Of a DNA stretch of 64,000 nt, positions 17,992 through 41,663 are shown in pieces. Source of the stretch: Paenisporosarcina cavernae (GTDB lineage Bacteria; Bacillota; Bacilli; Bacillales_A; Planococcaceae); the NCBI RefSeq assembly GCF_003595195.1, contig NZ_CP032418.1:694501-758500 (forward strand), given 5' to 3'. Numbering within the stretch: the stretch's first letter is position 1; every line of letters begins with the position of its first letter. The notes below the pieces were generated by a model. The model saw nothing but the letters and a program-made list of their open reading frames with translations, was not told where the DNA came from and searched no databases. Position numbers and translations under genes: made by a program.

Positions 17992-19149
17992 ATGCAACCA
18001 GTGTCACGCGAAGAGCGTATTCACTCGCTCGATATGATGAGAGGATTTTCGTTACTTGGGATTTTCCTTGTAAATATGCTCGTTTTTCACTCGCCATTTT
18101 TATACATTAATCCGTATTCGTGGTACCAAACACCAGAAGACATTGCGGCTTTTTCGTTTATTGATCAGTGGGTACAAGGAAGTGTGTATCCGCTGTTCTC
18201 GATGATTTTCGGTTACGGGATTGCCATTCAATATGAACGTGCCACTGCGAGAGGCGACGTGTTTTGGAGATTTGGCGTACGCCGAATGCTTGTGTTACTT
18301 GGCTTTGGACTCATCCATGCGTTCCTCATTTGGAACGGAGATATTTTACTGACGTACGCGCTTGCAGGATTCCTAGTTCTTGGATTGCTACGACTAAGCT
18401 GGCGGTTTTTACTCGGTATAGCGCTTGCACTTTACGCACTTCCAAACGTGGGACTAGCAGCACTCCTTTATCTAGGAGAACAAATGGGAGGCGTCGATCC
18501 GTCTCAATACGCAGCAGTGCAAGAACTCCAGGATTCGATTTCTGCATATGGACTCGGATCGTTTGCTGATATTTTCTCGCAACGAATTGATGACTGGATC
18601 TACACGAATGGATGGGGCTTGTTTCACTTAATCCCAACGATCATTTTGCCGTATGTGTTGCTAGGTGTTGTCGCAAGAAAGACGCAATTATTGGAACGTT
18701 TTTCGGAAAGAAAAGCAATTTGGATCACGCTAATTTTTGTTGGACTCGCTGCCGGAACGTTTATAAAATTTCTTCCTTATACGTTAGGCGATTCCATTTT
18801 TACGGTATATATTCAAGATATTTTTGGTGGTCCACTTCAAGCAGTCGCCTATGCAGGAATCATCGCGTTTCTTACAAGCATTCGTGTATTCCAGAAGGTC
18901 TTTCATTCCGTCGCACTAGCAGGCAGAATGTCCCTTACGATTTACATCATGCAGTCGCTGATTGCCACGACACTTTTTTATTCATATGGCTTCGGATTGT
19001 ACGGAAAAGTAGACGTCCTTGCAGGAACGATGATCGCCATTGGAATTTTCATTTTACAGCTCATCTTTGCGCAATTATGGTTTAGCAAATTCATGTACGG
19101 GCCGCTTGAAAAAGTATGGCGAAAACTCTCCTATCAGACGTTCATGTAA
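17992..19149 (+). CDS. DUF418 family polytopic membrane protein (YeiB/YxaH-like)
   Basis: 385 aa with about nine to ten hydrophobic segments. The N-terminal RIHSLDMMRGFSLLGIFLVNM and the C-terminal half with MSLTIYIMQSLIATTLFY are characteristic of the DUF418/HGSNAT-like family, often described as putative transporters or acyltransferase-like proteins. AAGGAG before ATG 17992, 7 nt after addA, suggests read-through from addBA. Function is unknown. Confidence 0.82.
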   Translation: MQPVSREERIHSLDMMRGFSLLGIFLVNMLVFHSPFLYINPYSWYQTPEDIAAFSFIDQWVQGSVYPLFSMIFGYGIAIQYERATARGDVFWRFGVRRMLVLLGFGLIHAFLIWNGDILLTYALAGFLVLGLLRLSWRFLLGIALALYALPNVGLAALLYLGEQMGGVDPSQYAAVQELQDSISAYGLGSFADIFSQRIDDWIYTNGWGLFHLIPTIILPYVLLGVVARKTQLLERFSERKAIWITLIFVGLAAGTFIKFLPYTLGDSIFTVYIQDIFGGPLQAVAYAGIIAFLTSIRVFQKVFHSVALAGRMSLTIYIMQSLIATTLFYSYGFGLYGKVDVLAGTMIAIGIFILQLIFAQLWFSKFMYGPLEKVWRKLSYQTFM

Positions 19150-19218
19150 TATTCACAGACATTTCGATAAACTGTGGTACGATAAAAATGACACATTAAA
19201 CTAATAGAGGTGACTATA

Positions 19219-19593
19219 ATGGACTTTTTAGCAAGCACACACCTACATATCACAACGTGGGTAATCGGACTTATCCTGTTCTTCGTCGCAGTTGTTTTAA
19301 CAAACGGCTCCAAAGGACAAAAAATCACGCAAATGATTTTACGAGTAGACTACATTTTGATCATTTTGACTGGCCTTGCGTTATTTATGAAAGGCATGGA
19401 CTACAACATGGGCATGCTATACGGTTTTAAATTTTTAGGCGGAATCTTAATCATCGGTATGATGGAAATGATTTTAGCACGCATGAAAAAACAAAAAGCA
19501 ACGACTGTTTTCTGGATCTTACTATTTGTTATTTTATTCGTCACCATGTTCCTAGGATTCAAACTGCCAATGGGACTTCACTTCCTCGCGTAA
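19219..19593 (+). CDS. yisL: YisL family membrane protein (UPF0344/DUF1516)
   Basis: 124-residue four-helix membrane protein beginning MDFLASTHLHITTW, the conserved opening of YisL proteins, with a GFKFLGG motif in the third helix. AGAGG is 8 nt before ATG 19219; the GTG at 19210 overlaps that ribosome site and is not used. Function is unknown. In B. subtilis yisL lies in the same general chromosomal region as addBA. Confidence 0.82.
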   Translation: MDFLASTHLHITTWVIGLILFFVAVVLTNGSKGQKITQMILRVDYILIILTGLALFMKGMDYNMGMLYGFKFLGGILIIGMMEMILARMKKQKATTVFWILLFVILFVTMFLGFKLPMGLHFLA

Positions 19594-19611: not shown

Positions 19612-19764
19612 TTGATAGGTATTTTCTTTGTCATCTTAATCGCACTTTTGCTCATACTTTTCGCACTTAGCGCAACCCGCGACGCGACAGATCACACAGA
19701 AATACTGACAGAGAAACAAGTGCAGGACGCCAAGCGCTACCTGCAACATAAGGATGAACTATAA
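19612..19764 (+). CDS. Small (50 aa) single-pass membrane peptide, translationally coupled to the GH13-like gene
   Basis: TTG 19612 follows AAAGGGGAGAA and opens a 50-codon frame. Residues 2-19 form one transmembrane helix (IGIFFVILIALLLILFAL), followed by a charged tail containing EKQVQDAKRYLQHKDEL. Its TAA shares one base with the ATG of the amylase-like gene (overlap at 19764), and it starts 18 nt after yisL. Spacing, ribosome site and coupling argue for a real gene. I do not recognise the family; it may assist membrane insertion of its neighbour, which is inference. Confidence 0.7.
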   Translation: MIGIFFVILIALLLILFALSATRDATDHTEILTEKQVQDAKRYLQHKDEL

Positions 19765-21074
19765 TGAAAAAAACTACGCTCCTCGCTTGTACGTTGCTCG
19801 CAGTTATCGTTCTTCAAACACCAGCTGCCGCAAACGAACTTAACGAGAATCTATCGACAGAAAGTGTCTATGACCTACTTGTCGACCGCTTTAACGATGC
19901 AAACCCGCAAAATAATGTGGACGTGAACACACAAGACCCATCGAAATTCTTTGGTGGTGACTTTCAAGGTGTCACGGACAAGTTAAGCTACATTCAAGAC
20001 ATGGGCTTTACCGCAGTCTCCATCGGACCGGTTTTTGAAACAGACACATACAATGGCAGCAACATCACGAACTACGGAGAGCTAGAGCCACGCTTTGGAA
20101 CAGACGAACAGTTCGAGCAACTGCTTGACGCAGCCCATACGAAAAACATGGCGATCATCGTCGACTTACCACTTGCTGGTGTCACAACCGAAAATCTCGA
20201 CAACGTCATTAGCGCCTACTCGGCGTTTTTAGCGAAATATGACATAGACGGTGTGCGTGTTACGTTGGCGAATGAAGAGCAGAAACCGCTAAGGGAAGAA
20301 GTTGTCGCGGCGATCCAACAGTCGTCACGGGTGTCAATTTTCCCTGTTTCGGACACTGTCTCGACTTGGCAAGATGCTTTCCGCACCGTAGATCTCCCAC
20401 TGGCTCAGTGGGCAAAGGTTGCGACTAATCCGGAAGCTGTGCAAGCCATCGATACACTGACAAGTGAACGTTTTACCGCGCAGTCTGCAGAAGAAAACAT
20501 GTTTCCTCCAACTCGAATTAAAGTCGCGTTAGGAGCCATGATGGCACTGCCTGGTATTCCGACGATGACATACGGAACAGAAATTGCGATGAATGGGAAA
20601 ACAGAAGCTGAATCGCATCAGTATATGAACTTTAAAACAGAAGAAGAAATTATCGACTATTTAACAAAAATTCAAAAACTACGTGGACAGTCAGAAGCCC
20701 TTCAAACCGGAAACATCGACATCTTACATGAAGAAGATGGATTCGTTGTATTGAAGCGTTGGAACGACGAAGAAACGTGGATTGTTGTCATTAATAATTC
20801 TTCGGAAACGAAGAAATATACGGTGTCTTCGGAAGATATAGGAGAGAAAAAAGAGCTTCGTGGAATGTTCGAGAGTGACATTATCCGTTCACAAGACAAT
20901 GGAAAATACCCTGTTGTGTTAGACCGCGAATTAGTCGAATTCTTTTACGTGGAAGATCGACGCGGTTTAAACACGGGCTACCTCGTAGCACTCGCTGGCG
21001 TATACGTACTCTTTATGGTCTTCATCTATCTAGTTTGGAAAAAAGGCAAAAACCGCACAAAGGAATCTCGGTAA
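19764..21074 (+). CDS. Membrane-anchored GH13 alpha-amylase-like protein lacking catalytic residues
   Basis: 436 aa: signal peptide (1-23, TPAAA before NE), a GH13 barrel from about residue 33, a C-terminal beta domain, and a transmembrane anchor (about 404-424) with basic tail. The fold is recognisable from SVYDLLVDRFNDANPQNN, FFGGDFQGVTDKLSYIQDMGFTA (given as landmarks only) and ALGAMMALPGIPTMTYGTEI. Region I keeps D134 but lacks the NH pair. Region II reads DGVRVT, so the nucleophile Asp is T167. Region III has no Glu (SIFPVSD). Region IV has FPPTR where FxxNHDxxR is expected. It is therefore predicted to be catalytically dead, perhaps a surface carbohydrate-binding or scaffold protein. 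Confidence 0.78.
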   Translation: MKKTTLLACTLLAVIVLQTPAAANELNENLSTESVYDLLVDRFNDANPQNNVDVNTQDPSKFFGGDFQGVTDKLSYIQDMGFTAVSIGPVFETDTYNGSNITNYGELEPRFGTDEQFEQLLDAAHTKNMAIIVDLPLAGVTTENLDNVISAYSAFLAKYDIDGVRVTLANEEQKPLREEVVAAIQQSSRVSIFPVSDTVSTWQDAFRTVDLPLAQWAKVATNPEAVQAIDTLTSERFTAQSAEENMFPPTRIKVALGAMMALPGIPTMTYGTEIAMNGKTEAESHQYMNFKTEEEIIDYLTKIQKLRGQSEALQTGNIDILHEEDGFVVLKRWNDEETWIVVINNSSETKKYTVSSEDIGEKKELRGMFESDIIRSQDNGKYPVVLDRELVEFFYVEDRRGLNTGYLVALAGVYVLFMVFIYLVWKKGKNRTKESR

Positions 21075-21101
21075 CCTAGTATAGGTTATCGGGATTTTTT
21101 T
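21064..21101 (+). terminator. Terminator after the GH13-like gene
   Basis: Stem AATCTC...GTAACCT / AGGTTAT...GGGATT overlapping the stop codon, followed by seven T. Confidence 0.8.
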
Positions 21102-21137
21102 GTTTGTAGTGTGTCGATATTGTTGGATCGGTTTGCG

Positions 21138-21480
21138 CTGATAACACGAGCGTGAACGCCAATAAAATGAAATCTACACTGATAGAAGCTCGTGCCGCGC
21201 TGATAGAAAGGGGTCTCGCGCCGATAGAACAGTGTTTTTCGCTTATAGAGCATCCAATGTATTAACAATCTCTGAAATATAGTACTTCCATTTGACCGTT
21301 TTGCGTCCGCAAAACGCACCTTACAGTTTGCGCCCATAGAACGAGCGAAATCGCCCAAAGAATGTGCGAAATTGCCCATAGAATGAAATTTTCACCCATA
21401 GAACGTACGAAATCAACCATAGAATGAAATTTTCACCCATAGAACAGGGTTCGGAGCCCATAGAATGCAAGTTTTAGCTT
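21138..21480. repeat. Large composite 21-nt-period array (A4)
   Basis: Block 1 has cores like CTGATAGAA starting at 21138, 21159, 21179, 21200, 21221 and 21242. Block 2 has cores like GCCCATAGAA at 21332, 21353, 21374, 21394, 21415, 21435, 21456 and 21477. Every step is 20 or 21 nt. It fills the gap between convergent genes and is the largest array in the window, with 14 recognisable units. A frame of 97 codons across it on the minus strand is a by-product with a seven-residue periodicity. Confidence 0.88.
21241..21322 (+). repeat. 82-bp direct repeat, copy 1
   Basis: Begins GCTTATAGAGCATCCAA and ends in GTCCGCAAAACGC-CCTT. Copy 2 is at 21477-21559 with only a few mismatches. Each copy starts with a final 21-nt array unit and continues into non-repetitive sequence, so the array end and its flank were duplicated together. 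Confidence 0.85.
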
Positions 21481-40240: not shown

Positions 40241-40442
40241 AATAGAAATAGGATAAATATAGTAACTTACTCGCATAATCTTCATTTACTTTAAATGCGC
40301 CTTCGTGATGAAAATATCCTACCTAATTCCTCTACACGTTTTGTCAATTTCGGTATTTTATTGCCAAAAAAGGACATTCAGCCCTTTTTAACATGAACGT
40401 TCCTTGTTACACTTAAATTACAAAGAAAGGATGACGGCATCG

Positions 40443-41663
40443 ATGACATTTCAGAAATCTTTAAGTGTGTTTGCACTATCTAGTGCACTTGTTTTTACTT
40501 CATTACCAGCTTCAGCAGAAACGACAACAGAAGATATTATATTCACAGAGAAGCAATTTGATTACCAATTAATTGATGAACAAGTGGTAGCAAGTTCGTC
40601 GCTTTATACATATGATTCAGGACTTCAATTTACATATCCAGATGCAGTGCGTGGTGTTTACGTAACTGGACATTCTGCAGGAGGAGCACGTTTTAACGAT
40701 CTATTAAAATTAATGGATCAAACAGAGTTAAATGCAATGGTCATCGATATTAAAGATGATTTTGGCGATTTAACCTATGTACCGAAAGAGGATTCACCGA
40801 TAAAAGATCTTGGGATTGGTAACCTGTATATGAAAGACCCGCGGAAAGTGTTAGAAACGTTGGAGCAAAAAGAAATTTATCCGATTGCACGTGTAGTTGT
40901 GTTTAAAGATACCCGTTTAGCGGAGAAACATCCGGAGCTATCATTCGTGGAGCCAAACGGAAGCGTATGGAAAAATGGACGAGAAGAAGCGTTTGTAAAT
41001 CCATTTGCAAAAGAAGTATGGGATTATAATGTGCAAATTGCCATAGAAGCAGCAAAGATGGGATTCCAAGAAATTCAGTTTGATTACGTGCGTTTCCCAG
41101 AAGGGTTTGAAAACCGTGCGGATGTGTTGAAGTATACGGGTGGAGGATATGAAACATCTGATCCAGATCCTGTGCAACGACGCGTTCACGCTGTTACAGA
41201 CTTTGTCGCGTATGCTAAAGAGAAATTAAAGCCATATGGCGTAAAAGTGTCAGTAGATATATTTGGTTACTCTGCGACGCTTCCAGAAGCACCTGGAATC
41301 GGACAAAATTTCTCGAAAATTTCATCTAATGTAGACGTAATTTCTTCCATGATTTATCCGAGTCACTGGACATCTTATTTTGGAATTAAGAAACCGGATC
41401 TTGAGCCTTATCGTTTAGTGCAAGAGTATGCAAAAGTAGAGAATGTGAAGTTAGCTGAACTGGGTGACAAAGCACCAATCTCCCGTCCGTGGTTGCAGGA
41501 TTTCACCGCTTCCTATTTAGGTGCTGGAAACTATCAAGTGTACGGTGCGAAACAAGTTCAACAACAAATCCAAGCATTGTCAGAAGCAGGCATCAATGAA
41601 TTCTTGCTTTGGAATGCAGGAAACCGATATAGCGCAGGTGTGGATTATACACCTGGTAAGTAA
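40443..41663 (+). CDS. Secreted putative glycoside hydrolase (DUF4015/GHL family)
   Basis: 406-residue protein with a Sec signal peptide (about 1-25, cleavage after SLPASA) and a TIM-barrel domain. The motifs VRGVYVTGHSAGG, MVIDIKDDFGDLTYV, EIQFDYVRFPEG (likely catalytic-face acids), VDIFGYSAT, ISSMIYPSHW and FLLWNAGNRYS are those of the DUF4015 putative glycoside hydrolases. Substrate unknown; a cell-wall or surface polysaccharide is plausible. AAAGGATG is 10 nt before ATG 40443. Confidence 0.85.
   Translation: MTFQKSLSVFALSSALVFTSLPASAETTTEDIIFTEKQFDYQLIDEQVVASSSLYTYDSGLQFTYPDAVRGVYVTGHSAGGARFNDLLKLMDQTELNAMVIDIKDDFGDLTYVPKEDSPIKDLGIGNLYMKDPRKVLETLEQKEIYPIARVVVFKDTRLAEKHPELSFVEPNGSVWKNGREEAFVNPFAKEVWDYNVQIAIEAAKMGFQEIQFDYVRFPEGFENRADVLKYTGGGYETSDPDPVQRRVHAVTDFVAYAKEKLKPYGVKVSVDIFGYSATLPEAPGIGQNFSKISSNVDVISSMIYPSHWTSYFGIKKPDLEPYRLVQEYAKVENVKLAELGDKAPISRPWLQDFTASYLGAGNYQVYGAKQVQQQIQALSEAGINEFLLWNAGNRYSAGVDYTPGK

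Follow-up and report, generated by a model that had tools for sequence, protein, structure and literature searches.

A predicted membrane-anchored pseudoenzyme derived from GH13_45 amylases and kept downstream of yisL in the Planococcaceae

The window analysed here is a stretch of 64,000 nucleotides from Paenisporosarcina cavernae. On its forward strand, positions 19764..21074 carry a gene with an ATG start that encodes a GH13_45-derived protein of 436 amino acids in one unbroken reading frame, as the first-pass annotation had read it. Pfam detects in this protein an Alpha-amylase domain (PF00128, 1.2e-26) and an Alpha-amylase_C_2 domain (5.2e-22). A hydrophobic N-terminus with an AxA motif makes up a predicted signal peptide of about residues 1-23 (19764..19832, + strand), for which AAA-N is the probable cleavage point, and hydropathy places a C-terminal transmembrane segment at residues 407-425 (20982..21038, + strand), where a 19-residue hydrophobic segment of mean hydropathy 2.5 is followed by net positive charge. 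On hydropathy, the signal peptide and C-terminal anchor proposed earlier are thus borne out. The same hydropathy test found a C-terminal transmembrane-like segment in all 67 distinct proteins of the family and an N-terminal hydrophobic segment in 64 of them. With such an arrangement, the ectodomain would face outwards from the membrane and a short tail would remain in the cytoplasm. The C-terminal region is rich in aromatic residues (Y406, Y414, F417, F420, Y422 and W425), and the sole cysteine of the protein, C9, lies within the signal peptide. A terminator-like hairpin at the gene end (21058..21102, + strand) was picked up by a consensus scan that returned 7 sites where 3.4 were expected in shuffles. 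Past the gene, at 21118-21400, several short near-repeats of the 'gctgatagaa / gcccatagaa' kind were seen by eye. Elsewhere in the window, 40404-41663 encodes a DUF4015 'putative glycosyl hydrolase domain' protein (9.1e-118).

The upstream neighbour encodes a DUF1516 membrane protein (19210..19593, + strand) and is presumably yisL by name; further upstream in the conserved cluster lies a gene for a DUF418 membrane protein (17992..19149, + strand), both being assigned by Pfam and locus comparison. Family loci are usually arranged as addB-addA-DUF418-(one gene)-yisL-pseudoenzyme, and often a CoA-disulfide-reductase-like, a degV-like and a HAD gene come next on the opposite strand; the names beyond those assigned by Pfam (addB, addA, degV-like and the others) are our assumption. 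Of the 69 family loci, 67 have a co-oriented yisL ahead of the pseudoenzyme gene, and in the two exceptions (L086 and L173) the upstream DNA extends for just 425 and 1,129 bases. Across the family, between 90 and about 1,800 bases separate yisL from the pseudoenzyme gene, and the region has no more promoter-like sites than chance would give (6 against 7.3 expected).

In the window, an ORF of 50 amino acids with a TTG start and a single transmembrane segment (19612..19764, + strand) occupies this gap, its stop overlapping the start codon of the pseudoenzyme gene. Among the loci inspected by eye, a comparable ORF showed at only five others (L082, L088, L091, L110 and L111); a conserved small ORF between the two genes is therefore not claimed, and this one is perhaps not part of the system. 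The spacing between DUF418 and yisL (19149-19210) is 60 bases here against about 1.1 kb in many relatives. At locus L083 of genome G006, which belongs to the genus of the window and whose protein is identical to that of L007 of Paenisporosarcina indica, the spacer holds a 300-aa ORF with, by eye, the look of a fumarylacetoacetate hydrolase, which we take to be yisK. No PF01557 match was found in the whole window genome, so a yisK-like gene seems to have been lost there.

The catalytic columns were read from an alignment of 110 distinct homologues in which L018 served as the triad-intact reference row. CSR-II (residues 162-172, 20247..20279, + strand) reads DGVRVTLANEE in the window protein and DGYRLDTVKHV in L018, and CSR-IV (residues 228-238, 20445..20477, + strand) reads AIDTLTSERFT against FMDNHDMSRFT, so that NHD has become TLT with L232 for His and T233 for Asp while D230 and R236 are kept. 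The register at both regions is safe since an alignment of 16 rows shows no variation at D162, G163, D230, R236, F237 and T238; anchored at D162-G163, it upholds the earlier reading of T167 in place of the nucleophile Asp. Around strand beta5, where the alignment is gapped and a remnant of the CSR-III region remains (residues 189-197, 20328..20354, + strand), there is no acid/base Glu, nor any Glu in residues 180-223, which are flanked by E179 and E224. This agrees with the absence first noticed near SIFPVSD, as does the alignment with the lack of NH in CSR-I of the window protein. One assignment had to be corrected: FPPTR (residues 247-251, 20502..20516, + strand), which had been taken for CSR-IV, is a conserved family motif located 3' of the true CSR-IV, the DTLTSER stretch, and it occurs in the triad-intact L017 too.

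Domain B is also missing. It would lie between beta3 and alpha3, where the alignment and the secondary structure of the model leave residues 136-147 (20169..20204, + strand), and alignment columns 155-225 hold 19 residues in the window protein against 55-58 in 20 triad-intact homologues. The LPDlx motif (CSR-V) was deleted along with it. The deletion is not a sequencing artefact, since three proteins of a related genus (L080, L081 and L120) have the same length in this stretch. Fewer than 25 residues remain there in 9 of the 67 family proteins, and the shortening needs 5 changes on a tree of 85 rows.

The residues that in Taka-amylase, we assume, line subsite -1 have gone in the same way. The Trp pair (A154-F155 in the window protein), the YW of the YHGYW stretch and the His residues of CSR-I, CSR-II and CSR-IV are all replaced, and apart from the Trp pair these replacements are shared by all family proteins or nearly all of them. 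Among the subsite -1 residues compared, the CSR-II Arg, R165, is the sole survivor. These losses weaken the proposal of a surface glycan sensor made in the first-pass annotation. They also bear on a lectin-like surface protein, whose cleft, opened by the absence of domain B, would bind, but not cut, a glycan of the wall or the environment. In its favour are the retained barrel and C domain, the CSR-II position (Arg in 59 of the 67 family proteins, Lys in the other 8) and a catalytic face still under constraint; the missing YW platform and His residues speak against it, and so does the scarcity of other GH13 domains described below, which hardly suggests that these bacteria use alpha-glucans through GH13 enzymes. 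We consider this reading rather unlikely, and it ranks second to partner binding.

Full triads are absent from all 67 distinct family proteins: the nucleophile column holds Asp in none of them, the acid/base column Glu in one and the stabiliser column Asp in six. The loss is therefore conserved among homologues. That the protein could still be an enzyme, using an unusual catalytic apparatus of the sort claimed for BmaN1 or performing a new reaction, draws on residues near these columns, namely a Glu one residue past the acid/base column in 37 of the 67 proteins, an Asp or Glu one residue past the nucleophile column in 14 and the six stabiliser Asp just mentioned, as well as on the reported activity of BmaN1 with His as stabiliser (PMC5347038, of which the accessible part is used here). 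In the window protein, however, T167-L168, the lack of Glu in residues 180-223 and T233 leave the three roles unfilled at their usual places, and Asn stands at position 97, where 96% of the family has Asp. Continued catalysis is accordingly judged improbable.

The fold appears to have outlived the active site. An AlphaFold2 model built from 16 input sequences reached a pLDDT of 78.1 and a pTM of 0.73, with regions below pLDDT 50 that include residues 43-56 and 277-291. Foldseek ranked 5a2c, 5a2a and 4e2o at the top for this model, and VIA-align superposed it on 4e2o with Z 38.7 over 364 residues at an rmsd of 3.1, in line with the GH13 barrel first noted from the sequence. The closest solved relatives by sequence are 5a2b, 5a2a and 4e2o (8.5e-68 to 2.1e-61), which the consulted portion of PMC11448133 gives as GH13_45 amylases. 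The match to 5a2b covers residues 30-136 and 230-404 but not the part between them, the place of domain B and CSR-II/III. The model thus predicts a (beta/alpha)8 barrel and an amylase C domain that are kept, and a domain B that is gone.

Searched with the window protein, 243 of the 247 family genomes and all 19 genera hold a homologue at E <= 1e-20; the four genomes without one (G035, G072, G073 and G074) belong to the same genus. Named loci of the group come from Bhargavaea and Paenisporosarcina, two genera that NCBI assigns to the Caryophanaceae. The best match is 3.7e-54 or better in 242 of the 243 genomes, the exception being G017 at 9.8e-38, whose protein (L113) lacks the triad by sequence, and triad-intact copies in family genomes score 3.1e-35 or weaker against the window protein. 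By a hand count, exactly one PF00128 match (E <= 1e-5) is present in 156 of the 247 genomes, none stronger than 3.4e-22, with one first-look candidate left unscored in a few genomes. As each of these 156 genomes has a homologue of the window protein, we infer that the pseudoenzyme accounts for the single match and is apparently their sole GH13 protein.

This distribution bears on a possible role in assisting a coexisting active amylase, as its chaperone or regulatory partner. Five family genomes do carry a triad-intact GH13_45 copy elsewhere (L018/L115, L114, L116, L117 and L118). The single GH13 match in 156 genomes argues against it and also against a role in starch use, and the window genome offers as other matches only two further GH13 genes, both distant. 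A partner of an active amylase is disfavoured by its retention in genomes with apparently no other GH13, and is highly improbable in our view.

The position of the gene is shared outside the family. Among the 22 triad-lost proteins from other families, 18 are encoded downstream of a co-oriented yisL, 15 of them within the fetched DNA and three (L151, L125 and L147) by coordinates, and no yisL was found within the 6 kb or less examined around the remaining four (L010, L014, L015 and L016). Triad-intact relatives of other families lie, by coordinates, on the same strand 9 to 25 kb downstream of yisL in all 12 genomes examined. No yisL was found in the fetched DNA near the intact copies of the five family genomes, and in G005 and G012 the intact copies and yisL are on different contigs. 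Given this shared yisL-linked position, the best reading of the pseudoenzyme gene is as a syntenic orthologue of an ancestral amylase, rather than a spare copy. Dependence of YisL on the pseudoenzyme was rejected, given that YisL persists in all 4 family genomes without a homologue.

The 85-row tree was built without the catalytic columns and rooted on a single distant outgroup (L019), which leaves the count of losses soft. In every one of the 200 bootstrap trees, a single clade made up only of triad-lost rows contains all 47 family rows along with some from other families. Label changes number 5 on the quick tree and 2 on the careful tree, and irreversible losses range from 2 to 7 over the 200 bootstrap trees; given this range, we claim only that the triad was lost at least two times. 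One protein outside the family (L147 of genome G323) has lost only its nucleophile, with His for Asp, and keeps the Glu and the Asp, possibly as an early stage of catalytic loss.

Purifying selection is apparent in close pairs of triad-lost proteins. By the Nei-Gojobori method, dN/dS was 0.058-0.184 in 27 such pairs with dS 0.1-1, 25 of them within the family; these pairs are not independent, and pairs with dS below 0.1 were left out. Over all 135 triad-lost pairs with dS 0.1-1.6 the median was 0.291 (range 0.042-0.644), and reliance is placed on the 27 pairs with dS below 1 because the remaining ones are near saturation. Only two triad-intact pairs were comparable, with values of 0.058 and 0.119. 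As the nearest relative of the window protein is at 49% identity, these estimates cover other pairs and not its own branch.

New constraint is visible as well. S86, G88, P136, P249, H285, S310, G360 and Y406 reach 96-100% conservation among family members, and at each of these positions the triad-intact set most often has another residue, a pattern that, on the aligned residues, argues for a new role. Among the family-specific barrel columns (>=75%), 16 of 22 are on loops of the catalytic face (p = 0.005), the face loops being 124 of 279 residues that we set from the secondary structure of the model, in which the H285 loop is of low confidence. This enrichment partly reflects where any GH13 protein changes once catalysis goes.

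A functionless relic of a decaying amylase would account for the shortening of domain B and the CSR-III region and for the long end branch of the window protein (0.63, where the median is 0.26). The presence of homologues in 243 of 247 genomes, dN/dS below 0.2 in each of the 27 pairs and the new near-invariant residues led us to reject decay, and we hold it to be very improbable. The evidence supports a membrane-anchored GH13 pseudoenzyme whose loss was kept rather than one in decay, and the first suspicion of a functional loss holds up, with the triad missing in 67 of 67 proteins and low dN/dS in the close pairs.

Since catalysis and the sugar subsites are gone while the face, the C domain and the anchor remain constrained, binding of a partner at the membrane is the most likely role, and a chaperone-like or scaffold partner is the version that we prefer. 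An ancestral membrane-anchored GH13_45 amylase would have been encoded downstream of yisL in Bacillales, and its catalytic machinery would have been lost before the radiation of the Planococcaceae/Caryophanaceae, after which the catalysis-free protein would have been kept for a non-catalytic job at the outer face of the membrane. The former catalytic face (S86, G88, P136 and H285) may bind the partner, as may the membrane end (Y406, F417 and F420). This partner would most likely be a membrane protein, for which the pseudoenzyme would work as an ectodomain scaffold in the manner of the 4F2hc heavy chain. YisL is the first candidate on neighbourhood alone, and a wall polymer the second; the persistence of YisL without the pseudoenzyme and the variable gap between the two genes count against YisL. 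We give an even chance to this account as a whole, in which catalysis was lost before the family radiated and the body was kept as an extracytoplasmic scaffold or partner-binding protein resembling 4F2hc.

A broader proposal is that the GH13_45 surface amylase of Bacillales always had a second, non-catalytic membrane role tied to yisL, so that catalysis could be dropped repeatedly and the protein would be a bacterial counterpart of 4F2hc, a core protein of the family and in many of its genomes the sole GH13 protein. Such a long-standing second role would explain how catalysis went more than once while the protein stayed. We put it forward tentatively, as possible but doubtful.

If the pseudoenzyme reading is true, the Pfam alpha-amylase match in nearly every genome of the family does not stand for an amylase, and genome-based claims of starch use would be wrong wherever the pseudoenzyme is the only match. 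The co-occurrence of triad-intact and triad-lost orthologues at one locus, together with separate losses of domain B, could be used to test if a non-catalytic function preceded the loss. Moreover, the C-terminal aromatic region of GH13_45, in print as starch-binding, persists in 67 of 67 proteins without a triad, which fits a membrane anchor as well as, or better than, starch binding.

In the literature searched, as far as the accessible texts go, no account was found of the family-wide conservation, the constant locus, the joint loss of triad and domain B or the retention without other GH13 proteins. Triad-altered GH13_45 proteins as such are already in print, since the portion of Sarian et al. 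2017 at hand describes a smaller group (Nos 28-34) with the entire triad substituted and reports BmaN1 as active with Asp203, Glu231 and His294, where His replaces the stabiliser (PMC5347038). BmaN1 and Nos 28-34 are like the window protein in being GH13_45 relatives with changed catalytic residues, and Nos 28-34 may overlap with the present family; the same portion ascribes domain B and the Trp pair to them, whereas the window protein lacks both and has no Asp after the nucleophile position (PMC5347038). The BmaN1-type signature Lys-Asp / Glu / His is replaced in the window protein by T167-L168, a stretch without Glu at 180-223 and T233, and a search of the window protein for shifted BmaN1-like catalytic residues found none.

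The GH13_45 amylases BaqA, ASKA/ADTA (5a2a-c) and GTA (4e2o) have in common with the window protein the fold, the C domain and the aromatic, hydrophobic C-terminal region, whereas their triad, Trp pair, LPDlx motif and domain B are all missing from it. The setting downstream of yisL is likewise common to the window and to the sampled triad-intact GH13_45 relatives, a sample apart from the loci of the characterised enzymes themselves. The C-terminal aromatic feature of GH13_45 is defined by five published residues, beside which the six aromatics of the window protein are set without one-to-one matching (PMC11448133, accessible part). According to the same part of Frima et al. 2024, a transmembrane helix is predicted in the C-terminal region of BmaN1, and this region helps to bind and degrade raw starch (PMC11448133). 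By analogy, this result stands against an anchor-only role, and the C-terminal region may do more than anchor.

The first-pass annotation had likened the protein to mammalian rBAT and 4F2hc, and for rBAT the likeness is inexact: rBAT keeps its active site and domain B and 4F2hc keeps neither, as far as the consulted text of PMC8537225 goes. The two differ in the anchor, which is N-terminal (type II) in 4F2hc and, by hydropathy, C-terminal in the window protein, and in the link to the partner, since 4F2hc is covalently joined to an SLC7 light chain while the sole cysteine of the window protein is in the signal peptide, which leaves the ectodomain without one for a disulfide of the 4F2hc style (PMC8537225, same text). 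They are alike in their architecture, and 4F2hc, as portrayed there, is a GH13 barrel with a C domain, without domain B and with an unconserved active site, held by a single membrane anchor (PMC8537225).
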